Shown: one piece after another, positions 30,482-64,000 of the stretch
Position numbering within the stretch: position 1 is the first letter of the stretch
Layout of the letters: each line of letters starts with the position of its first letter
Origin: Desertivirga arenae
Lineage (GTDB): Bacteria; Bacteroidota; Bacteroidia; Sphingobacteriales; Sphingobacteriaceae
Length of the DNA: 64,000 nt
Direction: 5' to 3'
Assembly: GCF_017355785.1 (NCBI RefSeq)
Contig: NZ_JAFEWE010000005.1
Location: 1 to 64,000, forward strand
Notes under the pieces: generated by a model
Databases searched by the model: none
Told to the model about the DNA's origin: nothing
What the model saw: the letters and a program-made list of their open reading frames with translations, nothing else
Translations under genes and position numbers: made by a program

Positions 30482-30501
30482 TCTCCTTTAAATGTGAAAT
30501 C

Positions 30502-30540
30502 GAGAAGGGTCTGGATTGGATGCAATCGCCCTTCTCTTTT
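30502..30540 (+). terminator. Terminator after the plus-strand GH43 gene
   Basis: GAGAAGGG (30502-30509) pairs with CCCTTCTC (30529-30536), followed by TTTTCT. It separates the GH43 gene from the GH127 unit. Confidence 0.7.
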
Positions 30541-30652
30541 CTATTAGCGAGTTAGTTTGCCTAAAATTTTTATTGAAGCGCGAACTCAGTATCTTAGGTG
30601 CTGTTGCCATAACCAATAAAACAAACAACAACACAAATAGACCAATTAAAAA

Positions 30653-34061: not shown

Positions 34062-35186
<1,125 letters not shown>

Positions 35187-37750: not shown

Positions 37751-37773
37751 TCTAATATCTTTTAAAGCTTAAA

Positions 37774-38745: not shown

Positions 38746-38783
38746 TTTTTCTTTCTTAAAATCAATAGTGTTTAATACCGTAA

Positions 38784-40547
38784 TTATTGCCATCCGGCAT
38801 TTTGTAATAGATTAGTATATTTAACCGTTTCGGTATAAGGAATTGGACCATAAATCATGTAGTTATCATAGGACCTGTTTTCCACATTAATAATAGAGTA
38901 ATTTGAACCTGAAATACTAATCCCTTTCGCTGTTTCATTCAGATTGCTGTTCCATCTTCGCAAATCCCAGAATCGGAAACCCTCAAAACATAGTTCTAGT
39001 CTTCTTTCGTTCCTGATTAAGTTTCTCATCGCATCTTTATCAGCCTTTATTGATTCCAAATAGGGATCGCCATTAGAAGTTCCTACTCCTGCTCGCCTAC
39101 GGATGGCTTTAATCACATCGTAAGCAGAATAAGTATGTGCTCCGGTGGCCAAAGGCCCCCAGGCTTCATTAGCAGCCTCAGCATATGCAAGGTACATTTC
39201 TGTATACCGGATATGAGGGTTAAAGTGCTTTTGAGTTGTGGTAGATGAAGGGTTGAGGTTTACATCCTGCCTTAAAAGCTTTCTCAAGTAATAACCAGTT
39301 CTTGTTGATGTTTCAACTTTATTTAAACCGTCATTGGTGGGGCTAGTGGCTGAAGTGTTTATTACCGAATTCGAAGTCCCGGCAGTGCTGCCGTTTACAA
39401 GAATAAAAAGGTTTAATCGTGGGTCGCGCCCGGTATATGGAGTACCAGCATTAAACCCGGAGTTTGCCAGATCAGAAATGGGATAACCGTTAGCCATAGG
39501 GAAAGCATCAACGAGGTTTTGAGTTGGATTAACCCTTCCGCTACCATTTAAAGTTGGGGGAAAGTTGTTCCTTTCCAGATCGTTGCTTGTACCCACATTT
39601 CCCCTCCACAAAATATCAGGGGAATTCGCACCGGCAGCAAGCGCATCAATACCTCCCGTTGTATTATACCATTGAAGGTCATTATTGCTGTCTCCTCTCG
39701 TTAAATTAGATAATCCGCCACCTAGGTCGATCACCTCTGCCGCATAATTTGCTGCGGCTTCCCATTTAGAAGCTCCGCTATTGAATGCTGGACTTGCAGC
39801 CAATAAAGCTGCCTTTGCTCTGATTGCTTTCGCTATACGCCCCGTCATACGGCCCATGAAACTTGCCCCGAAAACCCGGTGATAATTATCAGGATTAACG
39901 CCTGCATATTTTGCGGGTACGGGACTATTATCTGTATAATCGACAGGCAATAGCTCTTCAGCTTTATTTAAATCTGAATATAACTGTTCCAAGCAAGCTT
40001 CAAAAGTGGCACGAGGTTGATTGAAGTCGGACGTCACTGTCTCATGCTGTAGCAATAGCGGGACTCCGAGTAACTCTCCGTTAGCTGCCTTACCAGCATG
40101 GCTCTGTAGTAGATAAAACATAAATAGCGCTCTTAATCCGTAAGCCTCACCCTTCATCCTGTCGTTGAACATTTTGCTGATGACAGGATCTACTGCCCAG
40201 GTAACGCTGTCGGTTACAGCGAAAAACTGATTAAGGTACTGGATGGCAGACCTGCTATTTCGCCATTGATCAAAAGGGTTGTTCATAGAGGTCCACTGCC
40301 CGGTAGCCGCTTTGAGAAATCCACTGTTACGGTCATTTGTAACTGCATCATCGGTAGCTACTTCATTGAAAGACCATGAGTTTGTTGGAATACGTGTATA
40401 TCCATTTAATAAAAGGCCCTGAGCATACGTTGCATTGGTATAAGCGTTTTGCAGCTCCAGGTTGTTTTCAATCTCAGGCTCGAACATATCCTCACAGCTG
40501 CTAAACAACACTACGATTGATAAGCAGATTAATAATATCTTTTTCAT
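38784..40547 (-). CDS. SusD/RagB family lipoprotein (second SusD of the xylan PUL)
   Basis: 587 residues. Lipobox VVLFSSC near residue 18. The SusD helical/TPR fold is shown by the N-terminal NAYTNATYAQGLLLNGY, a mid-protein FNDRMKGEAYGLRALFMFYL and the C-terminal signature IRNERRLELCFEGFRFWDLR with YGPIPYTE. It binds oligosaccharide on the cell surface as the lid of the SusC transporter encoded just upstream. It is closely similar to the partial SusD at the right edge of the window, a separate copy. Confidence 0.93.
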   Translation of the reverse strand: MKKILLICLSIVVLFSSCEDMFEPEIENNLELQNAYTNATYAQGLLLNGYTRIPTNSWSFNEVATDDAVTNDRNSGFLKAATGQWTSMNNPFDQWRNSRSAIQYLNQFFAVTDSVTWAVDPVISKMFNDRMKGEAYGLRALFMFYLLQSHAGKAANGELLGVPLLLQHETVTSDFNQPRATFEACLEQLYSDLNKAEELLPVDYTDNSPVPAKYAGVNPDNYHRVFGASFMGRMTGRIAKAIRAKAALLAASPAFNSGASKWEAAANYAAEVIDLGGGLSNLTRGDSNNDLQWYNTTGGIDALAAGANSPDILWRGNVGTSNDLERNNFPPTLNGSGRVNPTQNLVDAFPMANGYPISDLANSGFNAGTPYTGRDPRLNLFILVNGSTAGTSNSVINTSATSPTNDGLNKVETSTRTGYYLRKLLRQDVNLNPSSTTTQKHFNPHIRYTEMYLAYAEAANEAWGPLATGAHTYSAYDVIKAIRRRAGVGTSNGDPYLESIKADKDAMRNLIRNERRLELCFEGFRFWDLRRWNSNLNETAKGISISGSNYSIINVENRSYDNYMIYGPIPYTETVKYTNLLQNAGWQ

Positions 40548-40578
40548 TTAAATAAAATTTAGTTTATCGATCCCTCAA

Positions 40579-43485
40579 TTAAAACATGGCTTTCACGCCC
40601 AAATTGTAAAATCTGGTCTGTGGAGCGGAGCCGATATTTAGTTCCATAATTTCTCTTTCTTTTGCTACAGTGAGCAAATTAAACCCGTTTACGTAGGCCC
40701 CAAATTCCCTGATAAATCCCTTACCTAATAAGCGGGCGGGGAATTGATAAGAAACCTGCACCTTTGCAAGGTCAAATCTGTCTGTGCTGTATAACCAAAA
40801 ATCTGAGTTACGATAATTGTTATCACTGGTACCGGTAGTAAGCCTTGGGAAAGTGGCTGTGCTTTTTGTGTCCTCGGTCCAGCGGTTGCGCACCACAGCC
40901 GAATACTTGTCCTGTCCGTCGACCCAGAAGTAAGAATTGTTTTTCATTGCAAAAGCTCCAAACCGTCCTGTTCCGAGAGCAAAAAATGTAAGGTTTTTCC
41001 ATTTTGCAGTTAGGTTTAGGCCTAAGGTTAAAGGTGAGCCAGACCATCCTCCCCTTCCAAGGTAAACTTCGTCGCGTGTATCTACAATACCATCATTATT
41101 CTGATCTTTATATTTAATATCGCCTGGTTTAACGCCACCTGAAGCTAAAGTGGATTGGCTTGGAGAGTTGGCAATATCTGAAGCATCCATGAAGAGCCCC
41201 GCGCTTTGCAGTCCAAATATAGCGTCGAGAGGTCTTCCTACTCTGAGTTGATATTCATCCACAAATTGGTTATCTGAAGCTCTTACTCTTGCTTCAGTTT
41301 GATAGTAAGTACCGTTCAAACCAAGGCTCCAGTTCGTCTGTCCCAGCTTCTTATTGAAATTCAAACCAAGATCAAAGCCTTTGCGCTGATCATTATCATA
41401 ATTTACAAAAGGGATATCTGAATAGACAGGAAAACCAGTTGAAAAATAATTAGGATAAAGTGAAGTTGGCTGAACGATGTTCCCCTTCGTTTGGCTGAAA
41501 AACGCATTCCCAGTGAATGATATGGAATTGTTGAAAAAGGAACCCTCCAGGCCAAAGTTAATCTCCCTTCTTTGCGGAAAAGTCATGTCAAAATTATTAC
41601 CCCGTCTTCTATCAAAACTATGAACCAACTGCCCATCTTTCCAGCTGTACCAGGCGGCGTCGTTATAGGTATAATAACCCTGATATAAATAGTAATTTGT
41701 TATATCCAGATCGGTGTTTAAAATACCTGCAGAGGCTGTAAGTTTCAGGTCATCAACTGCGGAGTTATCTTTAAGGAAGCTTTCCTCACTTAATCTCCAA
41801 CCAAGGCTTATAGTAGGCGAAAAAGCGCCTCTGTTTTTCTCGGGTAGCCGGGCTGAATAAACATATGCACTACTGAAATCAGCATAATATTTCTGACTAA
41901 AGTTATAGGCTAACTGCAGGCCCAGATTTGCATTATTAGTTTTATGATAACTGCCCGATTCTCCAATGTGGAAGCCATACCCTAATAAAGTACCAGAAAA
42001 ATTATGTCTTCTATTAAATGAACGATTATAGTCAAACTGACCAGAGAAGGCGATATTCTGACGATAATAACTGCTACTGATGTTCTCTATACCAGTTTTA
42101 GAATCATCACCAAATTTAGTAAGAGCACTGATCTGATCAAAACCAGCATAATTATTCCAGGAAGCTTGATATGTAGCGTAATTGTTATTGTACCCCTGCG
42201 TAAAGGAAGTTAAATAATCGATGGCTAGAGCTGATTTAAAAGACAGTCCCTGCAGCAAACCATTCAAATCGAAATCCACTCCTGTGTTAAACTGGAATTG
42301 CCGGCTTATACTTTTATTTGATCCCCCGGCATAGATGGTTCCGAACACATTTGTCTGATCCAATTGTGTTCCACCCAGCAGATATTTTCCGTCTATTATA
42401 TAATTACTGTTATTAACATAGATCGTGGAAGGATCATCACCATTTTCAACCATACTAATTGGAATAAGCGGAGAAAACCTGTTCGGACGGACGGTAGCGG
42501 CACTTCCCCAGTAATCTGCATTAACGCCTTTTCCGGTATAAAAGCTTGCTGTTGCGTCTACATTTAATTTGATGATCCGGTTAAGCTTCATGTCAATATT
42601 TCCCCGCAAGTTGAACCTATTAGCTCCTCCATTATCGGCTGCTTCGCCAAAGTTTAGCAGGGATCCGTTTGACCAGTAACCAAGGTTGGTATAATATTGT
42701 GCCTTATCATTACCACCTGAAATCTCCGTTGTTACATCATAGCGATTATAACTGTCTTTCAAATAATCGGACGAGTAGAAATTGAGATTAGGATAACGGT
42801 ATGGATTGGCACCGGCAGAAGTGTTATAGATGTCGTTGGGAGTATATAAACTGCTTAACCCATCGTTTCGAAGTGCTTCGTTGTATAGCGTCATGTACTC
42901 TGCTGATCCCAAATATTCCGGGTAGGCTGTTGGTACATTTACACCCGCATTTGCTCTAACATTCACTTGCTGCCCATAATTTCCGCCTCTTTTAGTGGTG
43001 ATATAAACTACACCTTTTGCTGCCCTGCTCCCATAGAGTGCCACCGATCCGATCCCTTTCATAACCGTGATCTGATCAATTTCGGTAGGCATTATATTAT
43101 TAGCATCGCGTGGAACACCATCCACTAAAACTAAATAACTGTTGTTTCCCCAAATATTTCCATGAAAACCAGGGGCTAAGGCTTCAAGGTTTTCCAAACT
43201 GTAGGTCGAATAATTCTTTTCCATCAATTGAGAAAGATTCACAACCGAAACTCCCCCTAACAAATCAGCCTTTTTAACTTTTTTAAAAGCTACCTGGACA
43301 AGGGAATCTTTGTCATTTTTTACATCAAGCGAATCAAGTTCTTTTATTTCTGAGCCTTTCGGGCCTTTTTTTATTTTAATAATCGACTTACTCTTTATAT
43401 CGATCGCAGCCTTTGCCGAACTTAACCCTGACAATCCCGTTGCGACAGTGAGGCATAGTGCTATTCCTATTTTTAATTGCTTCAT
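40579..43485 (-). CDS. SusC-like TonB-dependent transporter lacking the carboxypeptidase-like domain
   Basis: 968 residues from ATG 43485; the frame is open upstream but only this ATG gives a signal peptide (MKQLKIGIALCLTVATGLSG). The usual N-terminal carboxypeptidase-like domain is missing: after ~70 low-complexity residues the plug begins directly (SLENLEALAPGFHG, VDGVPRDANNIMPTEIDQIT, ALYGSRAAKGVVYITTKRG). A full barrel follows. It imports oligosaccharides with the SusD encoded 31 bases downstream. Two SusC/D pairs in series, the second shorter, match known xylan loci of Bacteroidota. Confidence 0.92.
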   Translation of the reverse strand: MKQLKIGIALCLTVATGLSGLSSAKAAIDIKSKSIIKIKKGPKGSEIKELDSLDVKNDKDSLVQVAFKKVKKADLLGGVSVVNLSQLMEKNYSTYSLENLEALAPGFHGNIWGNNSYLVLVDGVPRDANNIMPTEIDQITVMKGIGSVALYGSRAAKGVVYITTKRGGNYGQQVNVRANAGVNVPTAYPEYLGSAEYMTLYNEALRNDGLSSLYTPNDIYNTSAGANPYRYPNLNFYSSDYLKDSYNRYDVTTEISGGNDKAQYYTNLGYWSNGSLLNFGEAADNGGANRFNLRGNIDMKLNRIIKLNVDATASFYTGKGVNADYWGSAATVRPNRFSPLIPISMVENGDDPSTIYVNNSNYIIDGKYLLGGTQLDQTNVFGTIYAGGSNKSISRQFQFNTGVDFDLNGLLQGLSFKSALAIDYLTSFTQGYNNNYATYQASWNNYAGFDQISALTKFGDDSKTGIENISSSYYRQNIAFSGQFDYNRSFNRRHNFSGTLLGYGFHIGESGSYHKTNNANLGLQLAYNFSQKYYADFSSAYVYSARLPEKNRGAFSPTISLGWRLSEESFLKDNSAVDDLKLTASAGILNTDLDITNYYLYQGYYTYNDAAWYSWKDGQLVHSFDRRRGNNFDMTFPQRREINFGLEGSFFNNSISFTGNAFFSQTKGNIVQPTSLYPNYFSTGFPVYSDIPFVNYDNDQRKGFDLGLNFNKKLGQTNWSLGLNGTYYQTEARVRASDNQFVDEYQLRVGRPLDAIFGLQSAGLFMDASDIANSPSQSTLASGGVKPGDIKYKDQNNDGIVDTRDEVYLGRGGWSGSPLTLGLNLTAKWKNLTFFALGTGRFGAFAMKNNSYFWVDGQDKYSAVVRNRWTEDTKSTATFPRLTTGTSDNNYRNSDFWLYSTDRFDLAKVQVSYQFPARLLGKGFIREFGAYVNGFNLLTVAKEREIMELNIGSAPQTRFYNLGVKAMF

Positions 43486-43514
43486 TTTCGTCTCTTTTAG
43501 ATATTTAAAATCTA

Positions 43515-45410
43515 CTACCAACCTGGGTTTTGTTTAAACTCGGCATACATGTTCACATCGTTATTTTTAAGAGGTAACCAGTAATGCTTTTCTGAGAAAT
43601 TCCTTTCCAGCAGTGTTACTTCACGTAAGTTGGCCACTTTGTTTTGGGTAGGATCGGCGGTATTAAAAGTTCCTGTACGATCAAATTCCACAGACTTCTT
43701 CAATGTGTAAGGTTGCTGAATTAGTAAAAGCCACCTTCTCAGGTCGTTAAAACGATGTCCTTCAAAAGCAAGTTCAACAGCTCTTTCTCTCCGTACCTCT
43801 TGTAAAAAGGCTTCCGTAGAGTTGAGGAACTTAGGATTTACGGCATCAACTCCAGCTCTTGCCCTAATCACATTAATGGCTTCCACCGCATTTTTACTAA
43901 AGGCCGGATCTTTACCAGTTGGAGAATTGTAACCCATCAGAGCCGCTTCAGCATACATTAAATAAACATCGGCTAATCGCATATAAGGCACATAAATGTG
44001 CAAGTTATACCCCCAGTCGTAGCCATTATCGTACTTGTTTGCTGTAATTGGAATGAATTTACGAAGTACATACCCGGTACGGCTTCCTGTTCCGACGTCT
44101 CTGTAACTACCTCCTGTATAGAGGTTAGCATACCGGTTTCCTTGCTCATTTACGTTTGGAATTGCCCCCTGAACAAATTTCACACCATCGAAAACGATAT
44201 CATTATAAAAACGAGGATCTCTATTTTTCCAAGGAAATTGCGGGTCGTATCCTGATTCAGCATCAGCCTTTGTTATATCAGGAATTGGAAGGCCGTTCTT
44301 CATCCCATAATTATCAACGTAATTCGCTGTTGGTGTAAATTTTAAATCACCCTCGGAAATAACAACAGGTGTATACTGCTTACTAGTACCCCAGTTCGAG
44401 TTATTAGCGGAATAATAGGGGCCTCTGAAAATAGCTTCCGAACTTCCTGGAAGAGCCCAACCTTCGCCAGTGGTATAAAAGTTCTTATAATAATTTGTAA
44501 AGGCTACCAGGCTATACTGAGTTGTTCCCCCTTCAGTTAAATTTAATAACTCAGCGAAAGCTGCCGCTGCCTTTTTACAATATTCGGCATTATAGGTTCT
44601 GCTTCCCGTAGACTCGTAGTTCATTAATGGACTTCCCGCCCATAAGTAGTTCTTACCCAAATAGGCCAATGCCATAATCTTATTTATACGAAGCGCATTT
44701 TTACCCAAGGTTCTTCTACCAGGAGCGGTGTTATCCCAGTTTACCGGCAATAAATCGGCGGCAGCTCTGAAGTCGGCAGCAGCTTTATCAGCACATTCAC
44801 TGTATTTAAGACGAGGCAATCGCACTGCTCCCGCGCTGGGAAGCACATAGTCGATATAAGGAAGACCACCAAAATACTCCATCAAGCGGTGATGGAACCA
44901 TGCCCTGAAGAATAACAATTGTCCCTTTACCAAATTCCTTTCTTCAGGTGTTGCATCTGTCATCTTATCCATATTTGCCAGGCCGATGTTAGCTTTACGA
45001 ATGCCATACCAGGCTGCATTCCAAAGGTCTTTGTTAAAACGGTTATCCTGAGAAGTGCTGGTTGTAAAATCGCTCTGATTCATCCACCCTGAACCCCAGC
45101 CGTCAAACTCAGACTGCCAGCCCCAAAAGTTGCCGTCGTCTATCTTATGTATAAAATGAAAATTTCCAGCAGTAGAAGTTATTTCATCTTCTCCCCAGTT
45201 GAAGGAGTTTGTCCAGTAGTTATTACTGAAGTTAACAATACAGTTATACAATTCTTCCGTAAACCCCTGGAAATTGGTAAAATTCTTAAATGCTTCCTTT
45301 TCGGAAATATTCGTTTCGGGATCTTTGTCAAGGTACTTTTCGCATGATGAAAAAACCATACAAGTCCAAACGATAAGGCATGATATAATTGGTTTTATAT
45401 ACTGTTTCAT
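43515..45410 (-). CDS. SusD/RagB family lipoprotein (first SusD of the xylan PUL)
   Basis: 631 residues. Signal with lipobox CMVFSSC near residue 23. SusD motifs: LVKGQLLFFRAWFHHRLMEY, the central PYIDYVLPSAGAVRLPR region, YLMYAEAALMGYN and the C-terminal RRERAVELAFEGHRFNDLRR with HYWLPLKNNDVN. It pairs with the large SusC at 45420. Only about one third of the typical motifs match the second SusD closely, so the two pairs probably take different oligosaccharides. Confidence 0.93.
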   Translation of the reverse strand: MKQYIKPIISCLIVWTCMVFSSCEKYLDKDPETNISEKEAFKNFTNFQGFTEELYNCIVNFSNNYWTNSFNWGEDEITSTAGNFHFIHKIDDGNFWGWQSEFDGWGSGWMNQSDFTTSTSQDNRFNKDLWNAAWYGIRKANIGLANMDKMTDATPEERNLVKGQLLFFRAWFHHRLMEYFGGLPYIDYVLPSAGAVRLPRLKYSECADKAAADFRAAADLLPVNWDNTAPGRRTLGKNALRINKIMALAYLGKNYLWAGSPLMNYESTGSRTYNAEYCKKAAAAFAELLNLTEGGTTQYSLVAFTNYYKNFYTTGEGWALPGSSEAIFRGPYYSANNSNWGTSKQYTPVVISEGDLKFTPTANYVDNYGMKNGLPIPDITKADAESGYDPQFPWKNRDPRFYNDIVFDGVKFVQGAIPNVNEQGNRYANLYTGGSYRDVGTGSRTGYVLRKFIPITANKYDNGYDWGYNLHIYVPYMRLADVYLMYAEAALMGYNSPTGKDPAFSKNAVEAINVIRARAGVDAVNPKFLNSTEAFLQEVRRERAVELAFEGHRFNDLRRWLLLIQQPYTLKKSVEFDRTGTFNTADPTQNKVANLREVTLLERNFSEKHYWLPLKNNDVNMYAEFKQNPGW

Positions 45411-45419
45411 GGTATAATC

Positions 45420-48400
45420 TTAAAAAGTGATATTTGTGCCTAAATTGAAGCGCTTAACAGTAGGGTAAGCACCCTGAGAAGCCCATCCAGTGCCGGCAAA
45501 ATTTGATTCTCTGTCATCGGGCATTTTAGTCCATACAGCGAGGTTATTCCCATTGAAAAACACCCTCATACTTGCAATCCCTATTTTTTTCACAAAGCTG
45601 TTTTCCCTGCGGAACGTATAAGCTATCTCAGCATTTTTTAACCTGATATAAGACCCGTCAAACATAAACCTGCTACCGGGATTATAACTACTAGGGGTAG
45701 ATAACCAACGAGGTAGGGGTACATCTGCATTTGTATTATCTTTCGACCAGTATGATCCTTCGTTATAAACCAAATGGTTCTGGCTGGATAGACTTCCAAA
45801 CACTACCTGACGAGTGACATTATTTACTCCGTAAACCTGAACGAATGCACTGAAACCTTTCCAGTCAAAGCCCATCGTGGCATTAAAGGTATGTTGAGGG
45901 ACTGAGGGGAATGCATATGGAATGTTATCCTTCGAATCAATGATGCCATCCGCGTTATAGTCCAGAATATGGAAATTCCCTGGAAGCTTCTGAGCATCGC
46001 CATTATCAGTCATGGTACTTGCGTAAAGTTCATCCCAAGTATTATAATAACCTGCGCTTACGTGGGAGTAAGTTTGACTGATCTGCATATCTTCGCGCTT
46101 TTGATATCCTGGCAGTAACAGTGCGTCATCGGCATTAAGGACCCTATCTTTTGCCCTCGTGTAATTAACATTTCCCCAAACTCTCCAATCCGGATTTAAT
46201 TTTTTATCGACAGCTACCTCCACTTCATAGCCCTTGTTCTCTACTGCCCCTAGATTTGCTGTCGGCGCAACAGCTCCAAAAAACGTGGGAATTGCCCTTC
46301 TGTTTCCTGTTAGGAGAATGTCGGAACGCTTGTCTTTGAAGAAATCGACCTTTCCTGAGATAAAGCCTTTTAAAAATCCGAAATCAACACCAACATTCAA
46401 TTTCTGAACCTTCTCCCAACGTATGTCAGGGTTTCCTAACGCGTTCTCCTTATACCACACGTAAGGACTTGTTTCTGAGCCTTCACCGGTAATTCCCAGG
46501 TCTGTTTGTCCGCCGTACCCCCATTGAGTCAAGTATAACCAACGATCGCCGCCGCTATCATCACCAATCTCTCCATAAGAGCCCCTGATCTTCAGATTAT
46601 TAATAAATGTCAAAGGCTTCATGAATTTTTCTTCCGATAGTGTCCATCCTAATCCACCTGAGGAGAAAAAGGCAAAGCGGTTCTCAGGACCGAATTTGGA
46701 TGATCCATTATAGGATCCATTATATTCGATCATGTATTTGTTCGCATAGTTGTATGTGGTTCTGAAAACCCAATCTTCACGATTGAAAGGGATAGCGCTA
46801 CCTGTTGCATCCTGATTACGATTGAAAAGGCCCATCGCCGTAAAATTGTGTTTGGCAAAGGATTTGGAATAGTTTAGCTGGGCTTGATAGAAGAGGCGAC
46901 GAAAGGTTGCCCAATTCTGAACAGATCCCGCACTTGTAGCCCAATTAATACTGTTTTGAAAATCGAAACGGTTGGTGGCATCAAAAGCCAGTTGGTAAGT
47001 TGTTTGTCCGGTTTCAGGGTCTACCCATTTCGACTGAACATCATTATAAAGGTCATTAACACCACGGTCTCCCTCAACAAAAGTGTTATCAAGGGCAATT
47101 GTTCCTTTAAAGTTTAAGCCTTTAATCACTTTACCCAAATCCTGATCTAAGGTAAAATCAGTTGTTATACGATTAGTAGTAGTGTACTCTAGTCCGCTTA
47201 CTGCCAACAACCGTGCAGAGTTAAGGCCTCGTTGTACGTTAGGCGCATGATACCCCCAGGTTCCGTCTGCATATCTTGGCATAAATACATCCGGAGCGGT
47301 AGAGTAAGCTGCTATCCAATAAGAGTAATCACTGTTTGAAGCGCCCCAAGGCATCTTTTTTACCCCTCTTGAACCGGAGAGATTTGCCCGAAGAACTGTC
47401 GACTTAGACAACTGGAAATCCAGGTTACTACGCATATTCAAACGATTAAAACCGTAACCGGGTTCGTATCCCCTGTTATTTTCGAACTTCCTAAACAAAT
47501 CGCCTTCATATAAATAATCTGCACTGGCGAAATACTTTACTTTATTGGTGCCACCGGAGATATTAAGATTTGCGTTATGCGCTGTAGCGTAGCTTTTAAA
47601 CAAAACGTCATCCCAGTTAACATTAGGATAGCGTTCTGCCTCAGTCTGATTTGCAGGGAAACGATACTTATCAATAACTGCTTGAGGAAGATAGTCGTTC
47701 CAACTTTCTGGCCTCAGAGCCAGCTCATATTCAATTACTTGATTTCTAATTCTTAAAGCATCGTAAGCGTCATATTTACCAGGCAATTTCGAAGGTACTT
47801 TAGCCACATTGTTTACAGTTCCCCGAATACTTGCCTGGCCATCGCGACCTCTTTTGGTGGTAATAAGGATAACCCCATTTGCTCCCCTTACTCCAAAAAC
47901 GGCTGTAGCAGAAGCATCCTTTAGTACAGAAACGGATTCTACAGATCCAATATCAACACTTGTCATTGGCCTTTCGATCCCATCCACCAGGATTAAGGGA
48001 CTCGTATTATTCCATGTACTCCTTCCCCTAATTAAAATTTCCGGATCTTCATCTCCTGGCATGCCTGTACTTGCCGTTGTTACCACTCCAGGCACATTAC
48101 CAGTTAGTGCAGCTCCAATACTAGATACCCCTCCGGCCCTTTCCAATACTTTGCCAGTTGTTTGGGCGATGGCGGCTACTACACTGGCTTTTTTCTGAGT
48201 ACCATAACCAACCACGACAACTTCGTTAAGTTTTGTCAGGTCATCCTTCATGATCACCTTAACATAATTGTCGCTTCCAATATTAACCTCCTGAGCGATC
48301 ATGCCTACATAAGTTACTATCAGACTTTTAGCATCAATAGGCACATTAAATGAAAATTCCCCCTTTGCATTGGTTGAGGTGCGAGAAGAAGAACCTTTAA

Positions 48401-48596
48401 CGGCCACGATTGCTCCTATTACTGAATTTTGCTGCTGGTCAATTACTATACCTTTTACATTACGGACCTGCTGCCCGTAAACAGTATTTGCTAGCAGGCC
48501 GATAATTATCAGAGCCAGAAAGAATTTGGTTATAGGATGTCGGGAGTTACTGTATTTGTGGTCGTAGTTATTAGATAACTTGGCATTTTTTTTCAT
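45420..48596 (-). CDS. SusC-family TonB-dependent oligosaccharide transporter (first SusC of the xylan PUL)
   Basis: 1058 residues with a signal peptide (~20-42), a carboxypeptidase-like regulatory domain (~45-130, VKGIVIDQQQNSVIGAIVAV), a TonB plug (~140-255, LNEVVVVGYGTQKKASVV and VSVLKDASATAVFGVRGANG) and a long barrel ending RFNLGTNITF. The LNEVVVVGYGTQ box is the usual SusC signature. It is the first gene of the operon and the largest. It would import xylan oligosaccharides through the outer membrane with the SusD at 43515. The putative regulator HTCS lies directly upstream. Confidence 0.95.
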   Translation of the reverse strand: MKKNAKLSNNYDHKYSNSRHPITKFFLALIIIGLLANTVYGQQVRNVKGIVIDQQQNSVIGAIVAVKGSSSRTSTNAKGEFSFNVPIDAKSLIVTYVGMIAQEVNIGSDNYVKVIMKDDLTKLNEVVVVGYGTQKKASVVAAIAQTTGKVLERAGGVSSIGAALTGNVPGVVTTASTGMPGDEDPEILIRGRSTWNNTSPLILVDGIERPMTSVDIGSVESVSVLKDASATAVFGVRGANGVILITTKRGRDGQASIRGTVNNVAKVPSKLPGKYDAYDALRIRNQVIEYELALRPESWNDYLPQAVIDKYRFPANQTEAERYPNVNWDDVLFKSYATAHNANLNISGGTNKVKYFASADYLYEGDLFRKFENNRGYEPGYGFNRLNMRSNLDFQLSKSTVLRANLSGSRGVKKMPWGASNSDYSYWIAAYSTAPDVFMPRYADGTWGYHAPNVQRGLNSARLLAVSGLEYTTTNRITTDFTLDQDLGKVIKGLNFKGTIALDNTFVEGDRGVNDLYNDVQSKWVDPETGQTTYQLAFDATNRFDFQNSINWATSAGSVQNWATFRRLFYQAQLNYSKSFAKHNFTAMGLFNRNQDATGSAIPFNREDWVFRTTYNYANKYMIEYNGSYNGSSKFGPENRFAFFSSGGLGWTLSEEKFMKPLTFINNLKIRGSYGEIGDDSGGDRWLYLTQWGYGGQTDLGITGEGSETSPYVWYKENALGNPDIRWEKVQKLNVGVDFGFLKGFISGKVDFFKDKRSDILLTGNRRAIPTFFGAVAPTANLGAVENKGYEVEVAVDKKLNPDWRVWGNVNYTRAKDRVLNADDALLLPGYQKREDMQISQTYSHVSAGYYNTWDELYASTMTDNGDAQKLPGNFHILDYNADGIIDSKDNIPYAFPSVPQHTFNATMGFDWKGFSAFVQVYGVNNVTRQVVFGSLSSQNHLVYNEGSYWSKDNTNADVPLPRWLSTPSSYNPGSRFMFDGSYIRLKNAEIAYTFRRENSFVKKIGIASMRVFFNGNNLAVWTKMPDDRESNFAGTGWASQGAYPTVKRFNLGTNITF

Positions 48597-49112
48597 TACT
48601 TCACTTCATTTAGAGAAAAATAGAATTGGTTCGAATTACTTTCATACCTCTGCAAGGAAGACAGGTATAGTACTGATGGCAGAAGAAACCACCACCTTTC
48701 GGAAACATTGCGACTTGTTTTCATATAATTTTTGTTTAGTCAATAATTGGTTCAATTAATTTACAATTGAAGCCTCTTCAACTGTAGCAGACTTAATTAG
48801 GGATAAAGTAAAAATCACAATGAGGTAGGTTCCATCATCACAATTCTAATTCATCACTAGATCAAAGTCATTTTTTCCATTGCTCTACGTCAAGTGTCTG
48901 TAATCGGAAGCATCATAGTTAGTTCAGTAGGTTATAATTTCGTTTGTTCGAAGGTAGCCGGAAGGAGTTTTAAGAGGTGCAAGATTTGAATAAAAGGATG
49001 AAGCGATTGTTCAAAAAACAAGGTTTTAAAGGGTTTTGAGGCGGTTTACAAGGAAACAGTGCAAACGTTAGCATGAAATATAACTTCTACAGGTGCAACT
49101 TATAATTTGTTA
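48597..49112. other. Upstream region of the xylan PUL operon
   Basis: 516 bases between the HTCS stop and the first susC start, both on the minus strand. It must hold the inducible operon promoter, but I find no exact TAnnTTTG box. A palindrome-like site TGCAAACGTTAGCA (49060-49073, six of seven pairs match) lies about 465 bases before the susC start. No gene seen. Confidence 0.5.
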
Positions 49113-52100
49113 TCAATTACTTCCTCTTTTTGATATGATGTATTCTGAAGGTAGCATGTTAAAACGTATCTTGAATGCGCGGGCAAAATAATTTGGAGCC
49201 GAGAAGCCAACTGAATAACTTATCTGAGCAATATTCATATCACTTTTTTCCAGAAGAACGGCAGCTCTATCCAGTTTTATAGATCTGATAAATTCAATTG
49301 GAGTTTCCCCTGTTAGTTCTAGAATTTTACTATATAGGGATCCCCGGCTCATTCCCATATTCCGGCTCAAATCTTCTACTGACAATTGGGGATTATTGAT
49401 ATTTGATGTAATGTACAGTATGACCTTATTCAGGAACTTTTCATTTTCAGACTCGATTATCACCTCAGGACTTGTCATCTTAATTTGCTTGGTATAAGTC
49501 TTTTTAAGTCTTTCGTTAAGTGCTAAAAGATTCCGGATTTTAACGTTCAGGATATCCAGATTAAAGGGTTTTGTCATGTAATCATTTGCACCGGTCTCTA
49601 ATCCTAACAACTGGTCTTCTTCCCCCGTCAAAGCAGTTAATAATAGCACAGGAATATGGCTGGTTCGTTTATCGGCCTTTATCTTACGACATAGATCTAT
49701 TCCGCTGGCATGAGGCATGCTAATATCACTTACCACTAGCTGGGGATGAGAAGAAAGCGTTTTTTGCCAACCTTCCTTACCATTAGAAGCTTCAACAATG
49801 CGGTAGGCTCGCTTTAGATTATCCTTCAGATAAAACCTGAAATCGTCACTATCCTCAACTAGTAGAACTACCGGCAATTGCGAATCTGCAATTGCTCCCA
49901 ATAAATGATCCTGAGGGTTCCCTTCGTGCATCAATTCCGGTTCATCTTCATCTAAGCTCCCGGGACTTTCAATGCGATTAAATGGGAAGTGAATGGAAAA
50001 TACTGAACCTTTTCCGACGATACTGTGCACTTCGATACTGCCCCCATGCATATTAACAAACTCTCTGGTAATAGACAGGCCTATACCGCTTCCCTGGTTA
50101 AGAATAGCAGAACCTGAATTGCTCTGAAAGAAAGATTCAAATATTTTGTCGTGTGCTTTTTCTTCAATCCCTATACCCGTATCTGCAACCTGCACCTTAA
50201 GGCCGTTATCTGAATCTTCTATCCTGAAAGTAATTAGTCCGCCCTTCAAGGTAAATTTAAAGGCATTTGAAAGCAGATTAAAAAATATACGTTCCACCTT
50301 TTCATGATCGAAATTGGTGAAATAGGATCTGACCTGGCTGTTAAATTCAAAGTTGATCTGCCTTCTTTCAGAGTAATCTCTGAATGATTCTGCAACATCT
50401 CGCGCAAAGGCGATAAAATCCCCTTCAATTACATTCAGTCGTAACTCACGATCCTCCATATTACGAAAATCGAGCAACTGATTAACAAGATTTAGCAGGC
50501 GCCTTGCATTCCTGCGGATCATGCTTAACTGGCCATGTTTATTAGTACTGGTTTCGAGCTGCAGCAATTGCTCTACTGGCCCCATAATTAAGGAAATAGG
50601 AGTGCGAAACTCGTGACTTAAATTTGTAAGGAACTTTATTTTTAGTTGATCAAATTCATGCACACGTTCAGCTTCACGTCGTTCCTGCTCTATGGCAAAT
50701 TTCCCCTCCAGCTTTTGGATTCCTCTACGGCGGATGAGCCATAAAACCAAACCAATAATTAAAAAGTAGAAAAAATAGGCCGGGTAGGTTAGCCAGAATG
50801 GCGGTCTAACAGAAACTCTTATGGTGGTGACGGGACTAACCCAATTACCATTTGCACTTACAGCCTTTACGTAGAATGTGTATTCTCCAGGATCAAGGTT
50901 TGTATAAACTGCCGTATTTAGAGCTCCCACATTGTTCCATTCCCTGTCAAACTTTTCCAGCTTATACATATATCTATTTTCTTGGGGGGAGGTAAAATTC
51001 AGTGCTGCAAAACTCAAGGAAAAGTTCTGTTTATAATCTAATTTTATCCGCTTGGATATGGAAATATGCTCATTAATTTCAGCATCAGGAGATGGAAGAA
51101 CACTTTTATTTGAAATTTTAAGGTCGGTAAGAACAATTCTTGGGTTGTTCCTATTAAAATGCAAGGCACCAGGATTTACGTAATTAAAGCCATCAACGCC
51201 ACCAAAAAACAAGGTCCCATCCGATACTTTCATCCCTGAGCCCAGAACAAATGGACTACGCTGTAAACCGTTGTGGTATGAAAAATTTCTAAATTTTTTT
51301 AGCCCAGGATCAAAACTACTTAATCCCTTATTCGTGCTTACCCATATCTTTCCATAATTATCCTCCAATATCCTGTAGATCACTTCATTTGCGAGTCCGT
51401 CTTTTTCGGAATAGGGTATAAATTGTTTCTTTCTTAAATCGTAATACGCCAACCCTCCTTCGCTCATACCTACCCAAACAGTTCCGTTCGAACTTACACA
51501 TATTGCGTTCACATTATCTTTGGGTAATTTACTATTGGCAGAATTTAAAATTAACGATTTATTACTTATAGGATTATAAACAGCAATACCACCACCGCGG
51601 GATCCGATCCACAAATTCCCCTCATGATCTTCTTCGATAGCTCGGATGTACCCATTCGCCATTATAATATCCCCTCCCCTTTCAGACTGTGAAAAATGTC
51701 GGAACGATTTTTTTGAAGAATCGTAAAAGGTGACGCCCTGGCCATTGGTGCCAAGCCAAATGTTGTTCCTGCTATCCTTTTTTATACAAAAAACACTGGG
51801 ACCACTTATGCTTCTCGAACCAAGGCCTGCACTTATCCGCCGGATTTCACCCGTTTTTGTATCATAAACAAAAAGCCCGTCCAGATAAGTTCCTACCCAA
51901 ATTTCTGCACCCACACCTTCCATTGCAAGAACGGCCTTGCCTTTCCCTGAATTCGACAATGGTATATTTTTAAAGAGGCCTGTGTTACGATTGAAATGGT
52001 TAATTCCCCCTCCGTCTGTTCCCACATAAATTTCCGAACGGTTAACTTCAGCGAATGAGGTAACAACCGGAGCACTAAGTCCAAGAGGATCAGAAGGATT

Positions 52101-53150
52101 ACTCTGACGAAGGTTGAAAGTTGGAAGATTCTTATCATACTTGTTAATACCGCCGCGATAGGTTCCTACCCATGAAATACCTTCTCTGTCAATTAAAATT
52201 GAATTAACAGCCTTACCTATTAAACTATAGGGATTTCTATGATTACGTCTGATCCGACGAACTACCTTACTTGAAGGGTCAAGAATATTTAGGCCTTCTT
52301 CAGTTCCAATCCAAATTCTGCCATTTGGCTCTGCAGCCAGGGAGTATATTATGTTACTACTTAAGCTATGCTCGCTCGGGGTATGTTTATAATTAGTAAA
52401 CCCGCTACCATCTGGAAGCAACATACTTAGACCGCTATCTGTTCCTACCCAAATATTACCTTTACGGTCTTGAATAACGGATTTTACAGCGTTGTTGGCT
52501 AAGCTTGAACTGTCCTTGTCAGAATGCACATACTTCTTAAAAGAATTTGATTTCTCCAAATAAAGATAAAGGCCGTTACTGGTTCCAAGCCACATACTAC
52601 CACTTTTATCTGTAAATACCCTCTGAATAGTAGTTGAAACAGCCGCACGTGCAGCTGGATCATTGGAATAGAAATAAGTAAATTTTGATGTCACAGGATT
52701 AAATAGGATTAAAGCACCATAAGTTCCCATCCAGAGACTACCATCAGGGCCAGTAGCTATGGATAAAATTGGATTGCGAATTAGTTTATTATAATTTATA
52801 AAAGAATCCATCCTCCTGTTATACATGATCACCCCAGAACTGGTAGCAATCCATAAGTTCCCCTTCCCATCCTCATAAAGATCTACGATATCGTTGGAGG
52901 CGATACTATTTGAATCCTTTACATTATGCCGGTAAACAGTAAATTGTTTTCCATCAAACTTATTTAAACCATCATCGGTTCCAAACCACAGATAGCCAAA
53001 TCGATCCTTTAGTATAGACGTAACAATATTTGAAGAAAGACCTTCCCTGCTACCCAGGTTCATAAAATTCATTTCATTTTCCTGAGAGAAAATCAGAGAG
53101 GGAAATAGAACAAAAAAAACTATGAAATACAGATATTTCAGCTTAAGCAT
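49113..53150 (-). CDS. Hybrid two-component system sensor-regulator (HTCS)
   Basis: 1345 residues in the order: signal peptide (~1-22), two-bladed-set beta-propeller of Reg_prop repeats (~25-690, e.g. GYLWFGTDDGLNKFDG, GNLWIATSSGV), Y_Y_Y domain (~700-770), one membrane helix (~783-803), HisKA with His846 in LSHEFRTP, HATPase (DTGIGIEEKAHDKIFE, GSGIGLSI), receiver with phospho-acceptor Asp1142 (VVSDISMP) and Lys in MTKPFN, and a C-terminal AraC-type HTH (~1240-1345). All parts look intact. Such sensors bind an oligosaccharide in the periplasm and activate the neighbouring PUL. Its place just before the xylan operon makes arabinoxylan oligosaccharide the likely signal. Confidence 0.96.
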   Translation of the reverse strand: MLKLKYLYFIVFFVLFPSLIFSQENEMNFMNLGSREGLSSNIVTSILKDRFGYLWFGTDDGLNKFDGKQFTVYRHNVKDSNSIASNDIVDLYEDGKGNLWIATSSGVIMYNRRMDSFINYNKLIRNPILSIATGPDGSLWMGTYGALILFNPVTSKFTYFYSNDPAARAAVSTTIQRVFTDKSGSMWLGTSNGLYLYLEKSNSFKKYVHSDKDSSSLANNAVKSVIQDRKGNIWVGTDSGLSMLLPDGSGFTNYKHTPSEHSLSSNIIYSLAAEPNGRIWIGTEEGLNILDPSSKVVRRIRRNHRNPYSLIGKAVNSILIDREGISWVGTYRGGINKYDKNLPTFNLRQSNPSDPLGLSAPVVTSFAEVNRSEIYVGTDGGGINHFNRNTGLFKNIPLSNSGKGKAVLAMEGVGAEIWVGTYLDGLFVYDTKTGEIRRISAGLGSRSISGPSVFCIKKDSRNNIWLGTNGQGVTFYDSSKKSFRHFSQSERGGDIIMANGYIRAIEEDHEGNLWIGSRGGGIAVYNPISNKSLILNSANSKLPKDNVNAICVSSNGTVWVGMSEGGLAYYDLRKKQFIPYSEKDGLANEVIYRILEDNYGKIWVSTNKGLSSFDPGLKKFRNFSYHNGLQRSPFVLGSGMKVSDGTLFFGGVDGFNYVNPGALHFNRNNPRIVLTDLKISNKSVLPSPDAEINEHISISKRIKLDYKQNFSLSFAALNFTSPQENRYMYKLEKFDREWNNVGALNTAVYTNLDPGEYTFYVKAVSANGNWVSPVTTIRVSVRPPFWLTYPAYFFYFLIIGLVLWLIRRRGIQKLEGKFAIEQERREAERVHEFDQLKIKFLTNLSHEFRTPISLIMGPVEQLLQLETSTNKHGQLSMIRRNARRLLNLVNQLLDFRNMEDRELRLNVIEGDFIAFARDVAESFRDYSERRQINFEFNSQVRSYFTNFDHEKVERIFFNLLSNAFKFTLKGGLITFRIEDSDNGLKVQVADTGIGIEEKAHDKIFESFFQSNSGSAILNQGSGIGLSITREFVNMHGGSIEVHSIVGKGSVFSIHFPFNRIESPGSLDEDEPELMHEGNPQDHLLGAIADSQLPVVLLVEDSDDFRFYLKDNLKRAYRIVEASNGKEGWQKTLSSHPQLVVSDISMPHASGIDLCRKIKADKRTSHIPVLLLTALTGEEDQLLGLETGANDYMTKPFNLDILNVKIRNLLALNERLKKTYTKQIKMTSPEVIIESENEKFLNKVILYITSNINNPQLSVEDLSRNMGMSRGSLYSKILELTGETPIEFIRSIKLDRAAVLLEKSDMNIAQISYSVGFSAPNYFARAFKIRFNMLPSEYIISKRGSN

Positions 53151-55684: not shown

Positions 55685-55750
55685 GATAGTTATGGAAATT
55701 ATCTTGTTCAATTTATATTTTGTAATTCCGGGCATAAGAGATATTTGAAT

Positions 55751-60389: not shown

Positions 60390-60478
60390 GATTATCGGTC
60401 GGTTAGTAAGGAGAGAAACTATTTCCTTTATTCCAGGAAAAGCACTCAATGTTTTGGTAGAGCTATTTAGGCGATGAA

Positions 60479-60510
60479 GAGAGAGATGATCTTTCTCAAT
60501 CATCTCTCTA
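60479..60510 (-). terminator. Hairpin after the GH10-like gene
   Basis: GAGAGATGAT (60481-60490) pairs with ATCATCTCTC (60499-60508), 20 bases after the stop of the GH10-like gene on the minus strand. Only a short T/C-rich tail follows, so it may be a weak terminator or a transcript-stabilising hairpin. Confidence 0.5.
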
Positions 60511-60529: not shown

Positions 60530-62284
60530 TTATTTTCCTTGAAAGGCTTCTACAACCCCAACATAAGCGGGTTTTCTTTGATATCCAGCATTAACTGTAC
60601 TACCAGAGGTACCTCTTGTCCATAAACCCACAGGTTCATTTGGCCTCCAGGAATCACCTGAAATTCGATCATATGGACTTCTGAAAGTGATACCAGCGCG
60701 CTGCCCCGCAGGTATATGTGTATTATATGCCTTAACAAACCATTTATATGTTTCTGCTTGCTGTTGGTACAGTTCTGCCGTTGCAGCAGCGGTATTACCT
60801 CCAGTACCAATATCCAGAGCAGATATTTTAATTAACTTTCCGGTGGCCGCTAACGCTTGAAGCATCGCTTCGACTTTAGTCTTATCTACAGTAGTTACAT
60901 TTAATGCTAATTCTGTTGCAATTCCATCAACATTAGCTCCCTGGCTTTCTGTATAAGCAATATAGTCCTTCAATCCCTGAATTTTTGCAACATTATCAAC
61001 AAGATTAGTTTCTGTAATAAAGATCTTGTCGGAGGGGTTTGCGTATTGCTTAAGCATTTTAATAGCCGTAGCTGCATAATCCCTACCAAGATAATCCTGC
61101 CAATAAAACGTATTTGCTGGAAGACTACCCATCCCTACACCGGTTCTTAATTTGGTTGGATCTGTATCATCGAGTGGTTGGTAAACAACGCTCCAGGACT
61201 TAATCTTGTCTTTTCCCGCCGCTCCAACAGCTTTAATCCACTTATCGAGCTCGGCTGTGTAAATGGTTTTTCTTTCTGCCTGAGTTTTTGGTATAACCGT
61301 AAATTTCGCCCATGTTAGCCTTATATTGTCCAAGTGCATATTTGCTCCACCAGTTTCATTACCGAATGTCAAAACAAAACTATTCAGTTGTTTTTCAGCA
61401 TCGGTAAAAGCGAAGGTGGAAAGATCCAGCTCTAAATTCCTACCCCACACATTAGTTACTGCACCAATGGCCTCCAAACTTTTACCTGGGTTAAACTTAT
61501 TGAAACGCCCGCTGGGAACCGCTCCGAAAGTCGTTGATATTCCTAGGCTAATCCCCGCCCCTTGATTTCCAGCTGCAGCATTGGCATCCAACAAAAGCTT
61601 TCTGCAGTCGCCCAAAGTTACTCCCGTTGGCAAATTAACCTGATACTGTGGAAAAGCACGGGGCCCATCAAGCTTTAATGTCTTACCACTGTTTGATGCT
61701 CCAGCAACCGGATCTGTAGATATTTTTGCAGTACCAGATACGTCTGCTGTCGAATAGTAAACAGGAAATGAACTTCCAACAGTCCTGCTTTCGAAATTTT
61801 CAACCAGGTAGGTGCCGGTTGGACCAGGAATAATAAGGTCGGGAATCAAACTGTTTAGGTACGCAGCATTCTGATTGCTATGCTGAACAAGATGCCCTGC
61901 ATGAACTGCCATACCTGCTGATTTATTTACCTCTAATGCAGCAGTGATGTTATCCATAACAGGTGCACCGGTAGCTGATACAAAGTCCATATGATTTAAT
62001 CTTGTAAAGTTAATCTCATCAAAATGACTTTGCATCGTACGGTAAAACGGTGAGTTTTCAGCAACTTCAGACAAATTAAGCTCCACTCCTAACTTAAAGT
62101 TAGGCTGATTACTATAGTTGACGTATGTTTTTAGTTCTTTATAAGCATCTAATGCTTCCTGATCAATCAGAGATTGCGGTTTTTCTATGCTGAACTCCCG
62201 ACGCTCAAATTCAGAGCAGGCAACAAACAGAGAAGACAGGGCGATAGACATCGCAATACCAGCAGTGAGTTTATTAATCTTCAT
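60530..62284 (-). CDS. GH10-like lipoprotein with both catalytic glutamates replaced (probable glycan-binding pseudoenzyme)
   Basis: 584 residues. Lipobox LFVACS, Cys ~23. It aligns along its length with the GH10 xylanase at 35612: same split barrel with an inserted beta-sandwich (~150-330), same FYWQDYLGRDYA and LKDYIAYTESQGANVDGI blocks, and same ending WRPNEPVGLW. The active site is gone: where the xylanase has WDVVNEP, this protein has WSVVYQP (Gln369 for the acid/base Glu); where it has VSELDLG, this has ISALDIG (Ala489 for the nucleophile). TWH becomes VQH, and TQMH becomes TELA. The frame is otherwise intact. The insertion is shorter (one sandwich rather than two). Best read as a xylan-binding surface lipoprotein derived from a xylanase. 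It follows a DUF1735 gene as the active enzyme does. Confidence 0.9.
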   Translation of the reverse strand: MKINKLTAGIAMSIALSSLFVACSEFERREFSIEKPQSLIDQEALDAYKELKTYVNYSNQPNFKLGVELNLSEVAENSPFYRTMQSHFDEINFTRLNHMDFVSATGAPVMDNITAALEVNKSAGMAVHAGHLVQHSNQNAAYLNSLIPDLIIPGPTGTYLVENFESRTVGSSFPVYYSTADVSGTAKISTDPVAGASNSGKTLKLDGPRAFPQYQVNLPTGVTLGDCRKLLLDANAAAGNQGAGISLGISTTFGAVPSGRFNKFNPGKSLEAIGAVTNVWGRNLELDLSTFAFTDAEKQLNSFVLTFGNETGGANMHLDNIRLTWAKFTVIPKTQAERKTIYTAELDKWIKAVGAAGKDKIKSWSVVYQPLDDTDPTKLRTGVGMGSLPANTFYWQDYLGRDYAATAIKMLKQYANPSDKIFITETNLVDNVAKIQGLKDYIAYTESQGANVDGIATELALNVTTVDKTKVEAMLQALAATGKLIKISALDIGTGGNTAAATAELYQQQAETYKWFVKAYNTHIPAGQRAGITFRSPYDRISGDSWRPNEPVGLWTRGTSGSTVNAGYQRKPAYVGVVEAFQGK

Positions 62285-62306: not shown

Positions 62307-63314
62307 CTACTGCGCTACTGGTGTGAACACTTCAAATTTTACAGCCCGGTCGCGCATAACCAAAGTGTCTTTTGTAGCAACACTTCCGGTAATAGTCGTG
62401 GCACTCGATCCAGACCCTACATTTACACCGGTATAGGCAACTTGGTAATCAAGATAGAGCGCATCTCTGTCTATGTTTCCCCAACTCTTCTTTTCGCCCT
62501 TTTTTACAAATGCCCCTGTTCCGGTTGCAGTAAATTTTGCTGTATTAGTTGTGATAGTACACTTTCCCGCATTGTCGAATGTTAATAACAAAGTACAAGA
62601 GAAGTTATTCCCCTGTGCATCTTTAAAAACCACTGGGAAATCTAACTGACTCAACCCCTTAGTGTTTAACAGATTAACCTCATCTCGCTCGACATAATCA
62701 GCATGCCGTCTCACATTTCTGGTGGTTGCACCATTAGTCATAACATCTATACCTCTTCTTAAATAATTCCCATGCCACTGATTAACAAACTTTAGTGCAT
62801 AATAAACGAAATTTTTACCTGCTAAAATCGAATCCCGCGTTTGTACCCCTGTCATCCTTATCGGAAGAGCATAAGTGTTCCTGATAGCATCGGGATCGGC
62901 AAAAAATGCATCTGTTAACTGAACCTGAACTCCTCCTAGCAGACTCCCTTTTGGAATCGTTATTTGGTTCGATGCCAGCGAATAATAATTTGCAGGTAAA
63001 GGTTTTATGCTACCGCCTGTTGAGAAATTTAGATTATTTAAGAGCGAGTTATCAACCACGAAGTTTATAGCGATATCTTTTTTATTGTCGCGTGTTCCAC
63101 CGACTGTAGCCTTAATCTCAACCTTACGTTCATTATCTAATGTGTTATCTACAAATAAATCCTCGCCCAAAACAACTGTACGTACCGGGTACTGGTAGGC
63201 AAAATATACCGCCTGATAATCAAAATCAGGATGATCAATATCCTTGTTCTTCAAACAACCGGTTGCAGTAATCAAAGCAGCTACTAATCCGGTGAATATT
63301 TTAACTTTTTTCAT
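62307..63314 (-). CDS. DUF1735/DUF5627 SusE-like lipoprotein, second copy
   Basis: 335 residues from ATG 63314 (MKKVKIFTGLVAALITATGC, lipobox Cys20). Paralogue of the protein at 37774: VYFAYQYPVRTVVLGEDLF, YYSLASNQITIPKGSLLGG and NQWHGNYLRRGIDVM align position by position. An extra glycine/serine-rich loop (GVNVGSGSSATTITGS) lies near the end. It sits between a SusD and the GH10-like pseudoenzyme, mirroring the first locus. Likely a surface glycan-binding protein. Confidence 0.8.
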   Translation of the reverse strand: MKKVKIFTGLVAALITATGCLKNKDIDHPDFDYQAVYFAYQYPVRTVVLGEDLFVDNTLDNERKVEIKATVGGTRDNKKDIAINFVVDNSLLNNLNFSTGGSIKPLPANYYSLASNQITIPKGSLLGGVQVQLTDAFFADPDAIRNTYALPIRMTGVQTRDSILAGKNFVYYALKFVNQWHGNYLRRGIDVMTNGATTRNVRRHADYVERDEVNLLNTKGLSQLDFPVVFKDAQGNNFSCTLLLTFDNAGKCTITTNTAKFTATGTGAFVKKGEKKSWGNIDRDALYLDYQVAYTGVNVGSGSSATTITGSVATKDTLVMRDRAVKFEVFTPVAQ

Positions 63315-63340
63315 TTTGAATAATAAATTACTGTGGGTCA

Positions 63341-64000
63341 TTACCAGTTAGCATTTTGTTTTAAATTGCTATACTTCAACACTTCTGAATATGGAATAGG
63401 CCCGTAAATCATGTGATCTTGAAATGCCCTTTCTTCTACATTAATTGGAGTATAAATATTTCCATTTATATCTAAGCCGCGAGCTGTTTCATTTAGTTTA
63501 GTTAGGCTTTCCTTCCAACGGCGTATATCCCAAAAACGGAAGCCTTCAAAAGATAATTCCAGACGACGTTCATTCTTAATCAACTCGCGCATCTTAGCCT
63601 TATCTGTAGCACATTCCTCTAAATAGGCGTGGTTATTAGATGTTCCAACTCCAGCCCTAGTACGGATAGCCTTGATTACATCATAAGCTGAAAATGTATT
63701 AGGACCACTCCCTTTTGGTCCCCAGGCTTCATTTGCTGCCTCAGCATAATTCAAACAAATTTCGGTGAAGCGAATACGCGGATTATAACGGTTTCTTCCT
63801 GTTACAGATCCGGGAGTTAAAGAAACATCCCAGCGAAGTGTTTTCCTTAGATAATAACCGGTACGGGTAGAAGTTGTCCTCACGTTTATACCATCGGCCG
63901 TGCCAGATTGGCTACCTGTTCTAATAGCAGCGTAATCAGGGTGAGCATTGTATAAAATATAAGCGCGTAACCGTGGATCTCTATTTGCATAAGGGTTGCT
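63341..64000 (-). CDS. SusD/RagB family lipoprotein, C-terminal part (runs off right edge)
   Basis: 220 open codons to the window edge, with no start visible; an internal GTG at 63883 is not the real start since the frame continues upstream (PYANRDPRLRAYILYNAH). It is closely similar to the SusD at 38784: TSTRTGYYLRKTLR, YAEAANEAWGP, FSAYDVIKAIRTRAGVGTSN and KNERRLELSFEGFRFWDIRR. A partner SusC is expected just beyond the edge. First visible gene of the second xylan-type module. Confidence 0.92.
   Translation of the reverse strand, partial: SNPYANRDPRLRAYILYNAHPDYAAIRTGSQSGTADGINVRTTSTRTGYYLRKTLRWDVSLTPGSVTGRNRYNPRIRFTEICLNYAEAANEAWGPKGSGPNTFSAYDVIKAIRTRAGVGTSNNHAYLEECATDKAKMRELIKNERRLELSFEGFRFWDIRRWKESLTKLNETARGLDINGNIYTPINVEERAFQDHMIYGPIPYSEVLKYSNLKQNANW

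Follow-up and report, generated by a model that had tools for sequence, protein, structure and literature searches.

A GH10-fold lipoprotein lacking the catalytic glutamate pair, a probable surface xylan-binding protein encoded in a second xylan-type PUL of Desertivirga arenae

BACOVA_03431, encoded in PUL-XylL of the human gut bacterium Bacteroides ovatus, is a surface lipoprotein that is GH10-like, has no activity on xylans and binds birchwood and corn xylan, and its neighbour BACOVA_03430 corresponds to PDB 3N91 (Rogowski et al. 2015, PMC4491172). According to that paper it was the only inactive GH10 of natural origin described until then (PMC4491172), and in our search of the literature on other dead (i.e., catalytically inactive) GH10s, with subscription journals thinly covered, only papers about BACOVA_03431 were found. 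Other described systems are comparable in part. Xyn10C-type active xylanases with inserted CBM4 domains include BACOVA_04390 and Pm25, and xylan binding by the inactivated Pm25 was mainly due to its inserted CBMs (PMC7848910). BACOVA_04391 (SGBP, PDB 3ORJ) binds xylan at the surface beside SusC/D and is composed of three beta-sandwich domains without a GH10 barrel. GH18-like surface glycan-binding proteins and chitinase-like lectins are likewise dead TIM-barrel hydrolases turned binders, of an unrelated family and with other ligands, and serve as an analogy only (PMC4491172). Moreover, a GH10 with both Glu residues changed to Gln is reported still to hold xyloheptaose in the crystal (5OFK).

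We report that the 584-residue GH10-fold lipoprotein encoded at 60530..62284 (-) in the window, i.e., the whole stretch of 64,000 nucleotides analysed here (contig NZ_JAFEWE010000005.1, positions 1 to 64,000), has lost both catalytic Glu residues and is a variant of this described kind, not the first inactive GH10. A sequence-only reading of the same DNA knew of no GH10 equivalent in the literature, but the inactive, surface-located and xylan-binding BACOVA_03431 had been published in 2015 (PMC4491172). We consider it likely that the window protein is a non-hydrolytic xylan-binding lipoprotein, a functional SGBP on a GH10 scaffold, which would act at the cell surface. This reading builds on the fold, the loss of both Glu residues, the conservation among orthologues, the operon slot, a low dN/dS and the relation to BACOVA_03431, and it is the best one because this closest characterised counterpart does the same (PMC4491172).

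Searching Bacteroides genomes we found a locus (L130/L156) where a DUF5627 protein 100% identical to 3N91 over 317 aa is followed by a dead GH10, GH30, GH98 and GH115; this dead GH10, which has Asn at the acid/base and Asp at the nucleophile position, was taken as BACOVA_03431. Like the window protein it is a lipoprotein with a GH10 fold, a barrel insert and replacements of both catalytic Glu residues, and the gene order (SusC/D, SusC/D, DUF5627 protein, dead GH10) is the same, such that operon slot and 3N91-like partner match; its setting is a xylan PUL with GH30/GH98/GH115. The two proteins are, however, about 26% identical, BACOVA_03431 carries two insert modules and the window protein one, and the replacements are Asn and Asp with small residues for the subsite Trp in the former, and Gln and Ala with Arg in the latter. 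Furthermore, BACOVA_03431 belongs to a separate clade nested among Bacteroidaceae actives, unlike the window protein. With an identity of only about 26% and a separate clade, the function is therefore not simply transferable.

The reading frame is without stop or shift and starts with a lipobox-type N-terminus (LFVAC), in agreement with the intact lipoprotein proposed from the sequence; Cys23 (62216..62218 (-)), invariant among orthologues, is the predicted lipidation site, and the lipobox together with the likeness to BACOVA_03431 suggests lipidation and surface display. The Pfam GH10 model matches with E 9e-25 and 87.9 bits, above the curated cut-off of 22.1. A structural prediction compared with a GH10 structure, proposed earlier as a check, gave an AF2 model (pLDDT 77) with a (beta/alpha)8 barrel like that of solved GH10s (Z 34.7, rmsd 2.9 Å and 329 residues aligned against CjXyn10C, 1us3). 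The barrel comes in two parts, residues 34-149 with strands 1-3 (61838..62185 (-)) and residues 333-584 with strands 4-8 (60533..61288 (-)). Homology along the length to the xylanase encoded at 35612..37750 (-), which has the Glu pair intact, stands as a gapped end-to-end alignment of 32% identity (BLASTP E 4e-97) and does not extend to the inserts: the barrel insertion of the active paralogue holds CBM4 domains, and that of the window protein a single different module of ≈174 aa. Xyn10C-type actives, this paralogue included, share domain plan, signal peptide, PUL slot and ancestry with the window protein and differ from it in their intact Glu pair and -1 subsite and in the CBM4 type of their inserts.

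Acid/base Glu507 (DVVNEP) of the active paralogue aligns with Gln369 (SVVYQP; 61178..61180 (-)) and nucleophile Glu625 (KVSELD) with Ala489 (KISALD; 60818..60820 (-)), while TWH has become VQH and TQMH has become TELA. All of these changes had been claimed from the sequence and are borne out by the paralogue alignment, and the residue correspondences are identical when C. japonicus Xyn10A is aligned (1xys, in which nucleophile E246 is mutated to Cys). The -1 subsite of GH10 enzymes comprises Lys, Asn, Gln, His and Trp, and in the window protein these are replaced by Asn97, Tyr368, Glu458, Ala460 and Arg535, respectively. From the absence of the Glu pair that active GH10 xylanases have, we infer that the protein is catalytically inactive, and the -1 subsite is so changed that the cleft itself might refuse xylose.

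The remodelling follows a pattern that is common to the clade. Comparison of 53 Glu-intact relatives gave 69 barrel positions with ≥95% conservation. Of these the dead clade has kept 36, another 13 carry a single new residue that at least 11 of the 12 members share, and seven are lost without a fixed replacement. The swapped and fixed positions (H87, T94, G130, H131, S365, Y368, Q369, K412, T424, E425, T426, E458 and R535; window numbering 1-584) are with two exceptions (11/13) strand ends round the old active site, and include Glu425 (Asp in actives; 61010..61012 (-)) at the end of strand 5, Glu458 (Gln in actives; 60911..60913 (-)) in strand 6, and Arg535 (60680..60682 (-)), which replaces the Trp platform of the -1 subsite in 11 of 12 members. 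Retained positions are Trp134, His135 (invariant), Gln138 and Trp546. The window copy is atypical in its clade, having Gln in place of the Trp134 that the other 11 of 12 members keep, and an insert 32-43% identical to those of other members.

That new carboxylates are fixed at the mouth of the old active site, and that GH10 barrels are tolerant of much change, would also fit a changed enzyme, with Glu425, Glu458 and Asp491 as a new catalytic centre for a decoration or another linkage. Against this, we know of no GH10 chemistry that uses positions 425, 458 and 491. The Arg that replaces Trp beside a Glu would more likely make a salt bridge, and BACOVA_03431, which is without equivalents of the three carboxylates, is simply inactive (PMC4491172); we hold a new activity to be very improbable.

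Orthologues were searched for in 400 genomes of the family, by a species-genome scan and in a set of 346 genomes from a second family, which we took to be Chitinophagaceae. The window clade has 15 dead relatives (one a near duplicate) from approximately 14 Sphingobacteriaceae/Chitinophagaceae genomes, and no additional dead GH10 was found in a class-wide sample. The acid/base position is Gln in 14 of the 15, the exception being a frameshifted Arachidicoccus copy with Glu. At the nucleophile position the 12 aligned members have Ala (five), a gap (five), Gly (one) or Ser (one), i.e., the Glu is always lost and its replacement is unfixed. Of the two residues suggested as a conservation check, Gln is thus conserved and Ala is not. 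The Arachidicoccus ginsenosidivorans copy (L043:7965-9667), which comes from a complete genome, is divided between two overlapping frames, and a gene in genome G1592, taken to be the same one, has kept the acid/base Glu.

Only two pairs had a measurable dS, and their dN/dS ratios (NG86) were 0.10 and 0.13; the remaining pairs were saturated. The shared state in the orthologues, the conserved slot, the low dN/dS and the fixed new residues round the old active site support the earlier claim of a repurposed enzyme and not of decay. Two broken relatives, the split A. ginsenosidivorans copy and one copy in a Bacteroides MAG, are what might be expected if the window gene were a pseudogene at an early stage of decay. 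The other orthologues are, however, full-length and open, with a dN/dS of about 0.1, shared derived residues and conserved synteny, and decay of the window gene is therefore extremely unlikely; for the clade as a whole, a pseudogene or a sequencing error is ruled out by orthologues, dN/dS and synteny.

The module inserted in the beta3/alpha3 loop (residues 156-329; 61298..61819 (-)) is a CBM-like beta-sandwich without a Pfam family, and in 13 members no Pfam match to the insert was seen at E 0.1. Its fold is of the CBM type (Foldseek 4.6e-5 to R. marinus CBM4-2), and structure comparison gave Z values of about 10-11 to CBM11, CBM15 and CBM22, but likewise to sandwiches that are not CBMs. One copy is present in the window clade and two in the Bacteroides dead clade. 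Because two Glu-intact relatives carry the insert as well, L133 in two copies and L033 together with a CBM4-like domain, it probably predates the catalytic losses. Since Pm25 binds mainly via its inserted CBMs, the insert would be the likeliest xylan-binding site of the window protein, through which most of the binding may occur.

With respect to gene context, the region has two parallel xylan-type PUL cores with the same gene order. In the first (35612-53150), HTCS, SusC, SusD, SusC, SusD and the DUF5627 protein (37774..53150 (-)) are followed by the active GH10 with CBM4 inserts as the last gene. In the second, an HTCS gene at about C39:78 kb, beyond the window, is followed by SusC, SusD, SusC, a SusD-like protein (63341..64000 (-), cut at the window edge), a BT_3987-like_N + DUF5627 lipoprotein (62307..63341 (-)) and the dead GH10, which ends the core at 60530. 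The DUF5627 product is a BACOVA_03430 homologue with 3N91 as its sole PDB relative (1.5e-80). The dead GH10 is thus not in the PUL of the active one; it closes a separate second PUL, which extends beyond the window edge. The context is that of an SGBP, with SusD and SusC upstream and the lipobox Cys, and further genes beyond the second PUL encode GH10, GH43, GH31, GH97, GH27 and GH43-CBM6 proteins.

The slot SusC-SusD-SusC-SusD-DUF5627-dead GH10 recurs in Bacteroidaceae and in those loci of Sphingobacterium and Chitinophagaceae that were examined; S. litopenaei (G052) and genome G121 each have a dead core and an active one arranged in tandem. The dead GH10 has xylan enzymes as neighbours, namely GH30/GH43/GH67 in S. 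arenae, GH43 in Arachidicoccus and GH30 in the congener G001, and in Niabella a GH30 follows immediately.

The GH10 in this slot may be active or dead, and the SusCD complexes for levan and dextran form stable assemblies that include an SGBP and also a surface GH (PMC7618045). Combined with a cleft that is strongly remodelled, the Trp to Arg change included, this would be consistent with a structural subunit, where the dead barrel docks on the SusC/D pair in a utilisome-like manner and takes the place of a surface glycanase, its cleft binding hardly any glycan or none. Yet the barrel-mouth positions are re-fixed as polar residues, which is more than relaxation, the CBM-like insert is kept and BACOVA_03431 binds xylan (PMC4491172), and we regard a purely structural role as unlikely.

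Other genes in the window were also noted. Beside the first PUL are two GH43 genes and a GH127 gene (26784-33046), together with an esterase-like gene (34071-35186 (+); an esterase as judged by its sequence only), and this gene content suggests arabinose-decorated xylan as the substrate. After the dead GH10 lies a four-gene cassette (53294-60503 (-)) encoding a 284-aa secreted protein without a family, an STN-type TonB receptor, a DUF4249 protein and an 813-aa protein. All four have homologues behind a GH10-like gene in L157 (G1405). Behind the Glu-intact Xyn10C genes of L028, L032 and L033/L117 there are homologues of the first gene or of the first two or three, and behind that of L154 a homologue of the first; in this comparison some flanks were too short for all four genes to show.

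To place the dead clades, GH10 barrel trees were computed with active-site columns and the insert removed and, for all but one tree, the LG+C20 mixture model. The Bacteroides dead clade (100/100) is placed within the Bacteroidaceae group with 99-100% support, the window clade (100/100) lies outside this group, and when either dead clade is left out the other keeps its position. A single dead clade was rejected (AU p 0.003, 0.005, 0.03 and 0.001, values that are optimistic given that the groups were named after the first tree). Long-branch attraction would draw the dead clades together, and their separation is therefore conservative. At nearly all lost positions the residues also differ between the two clades. 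Partial states were seen as well: L139 (G1405), adjoining the window clade, has Asp at the acid/base position and the nucleophile kept, and L132 (G1181), in the Bacteroides dead clade, has both Glu residues.

Both clades have the same inserted module, slot and DUF5627 partner, and in the DUF5627 tree, where each set forms a clade, their union alone was not rejected (AU p 0.12), as would be the case if one dead GH10 were ancestral to the window and B. ovatus clades and had spread by descent or transfer. Such an origin, which would be compatible with a binding role, appears improbable: the GH10 trees place the Bacteroides dead clade among Bacteroidaceae actives and reject the joint clade, each lineage also has a Glu-intact GH10 that carries the shared module (L033 and L133), and Glu residues are still present in L132 and L139. 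A dead ancestor common with BACOVA_03431 was accordingly discarded on the GH10 trees (AU p 0.001-0.03, optimistic), the DUF5627 tree alone giving p 0.12. Given the different replacement residues and the lack of a joint clade, catalysis therefore appears to have been lost on at least two occasions in one and the same PUL slot, which seems to be new. In L004, from the same genus (G001), another dead GH10, followed by a GH30, has Arg where the acid/base Glu would be and Gly in place of the nucleophile. This GH10 groups with the window clade (97/88), whereas membership is rejected for its DUF5627 neighbour (p 0.009), and with these conflicting placements a third independent loss has been considered.

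For the likely xylan-binding lipoprotein we propose that an active Xyn10C-type xylanase, with the CBM-like insert already present, would have been duplicated with the whole SusC/D-SusC/D-DUF5627 core. One copy would then have lost both catalytic Glu residues and acquired a rebuilt -1 subsite (Glu to Gln, Trp to Arg, Asn-Asp-Tyr to Thr-Glu-Thr and Gln to Glu), and would now hold decorated xylan uncut beside its own SusC/D pair, leaving the cutting to enzymes encoded nearby. A wider and more tentative proposal, for which we see somewhat less than even chances, is that the in-place turnover from Xyn10C to binder has been repeated, in at least two lineages (Sphingobacteriaceae/Chitinophagaceae and Bacteroidaceae, with L139 and L132 as intermediates), and that the fixed polar site of the window clade (Gln369, Thr424-Glu425, Glu458 and Arg535) recognises a particular xylan decoration.

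The data provide a second family of natural inactive GH10s, from environmental Bacteroidota, of apparently independent origin and with a fixed site of its own. With two dead clades, active relatives having the same module and partial intermediates, the change from enzyme to binding protein can be studied as a comparable, repeated event. Moreover, Pfam scores the dead proteins as ordinary GH10s, so that xylanase activity is overestimated when it is judged from the number of GH10s in metagenomes or PUL surveys. Finally, if the wider proposal is true, repeated turnover of this kind would be a general route for PULs to gain ligand specificity.
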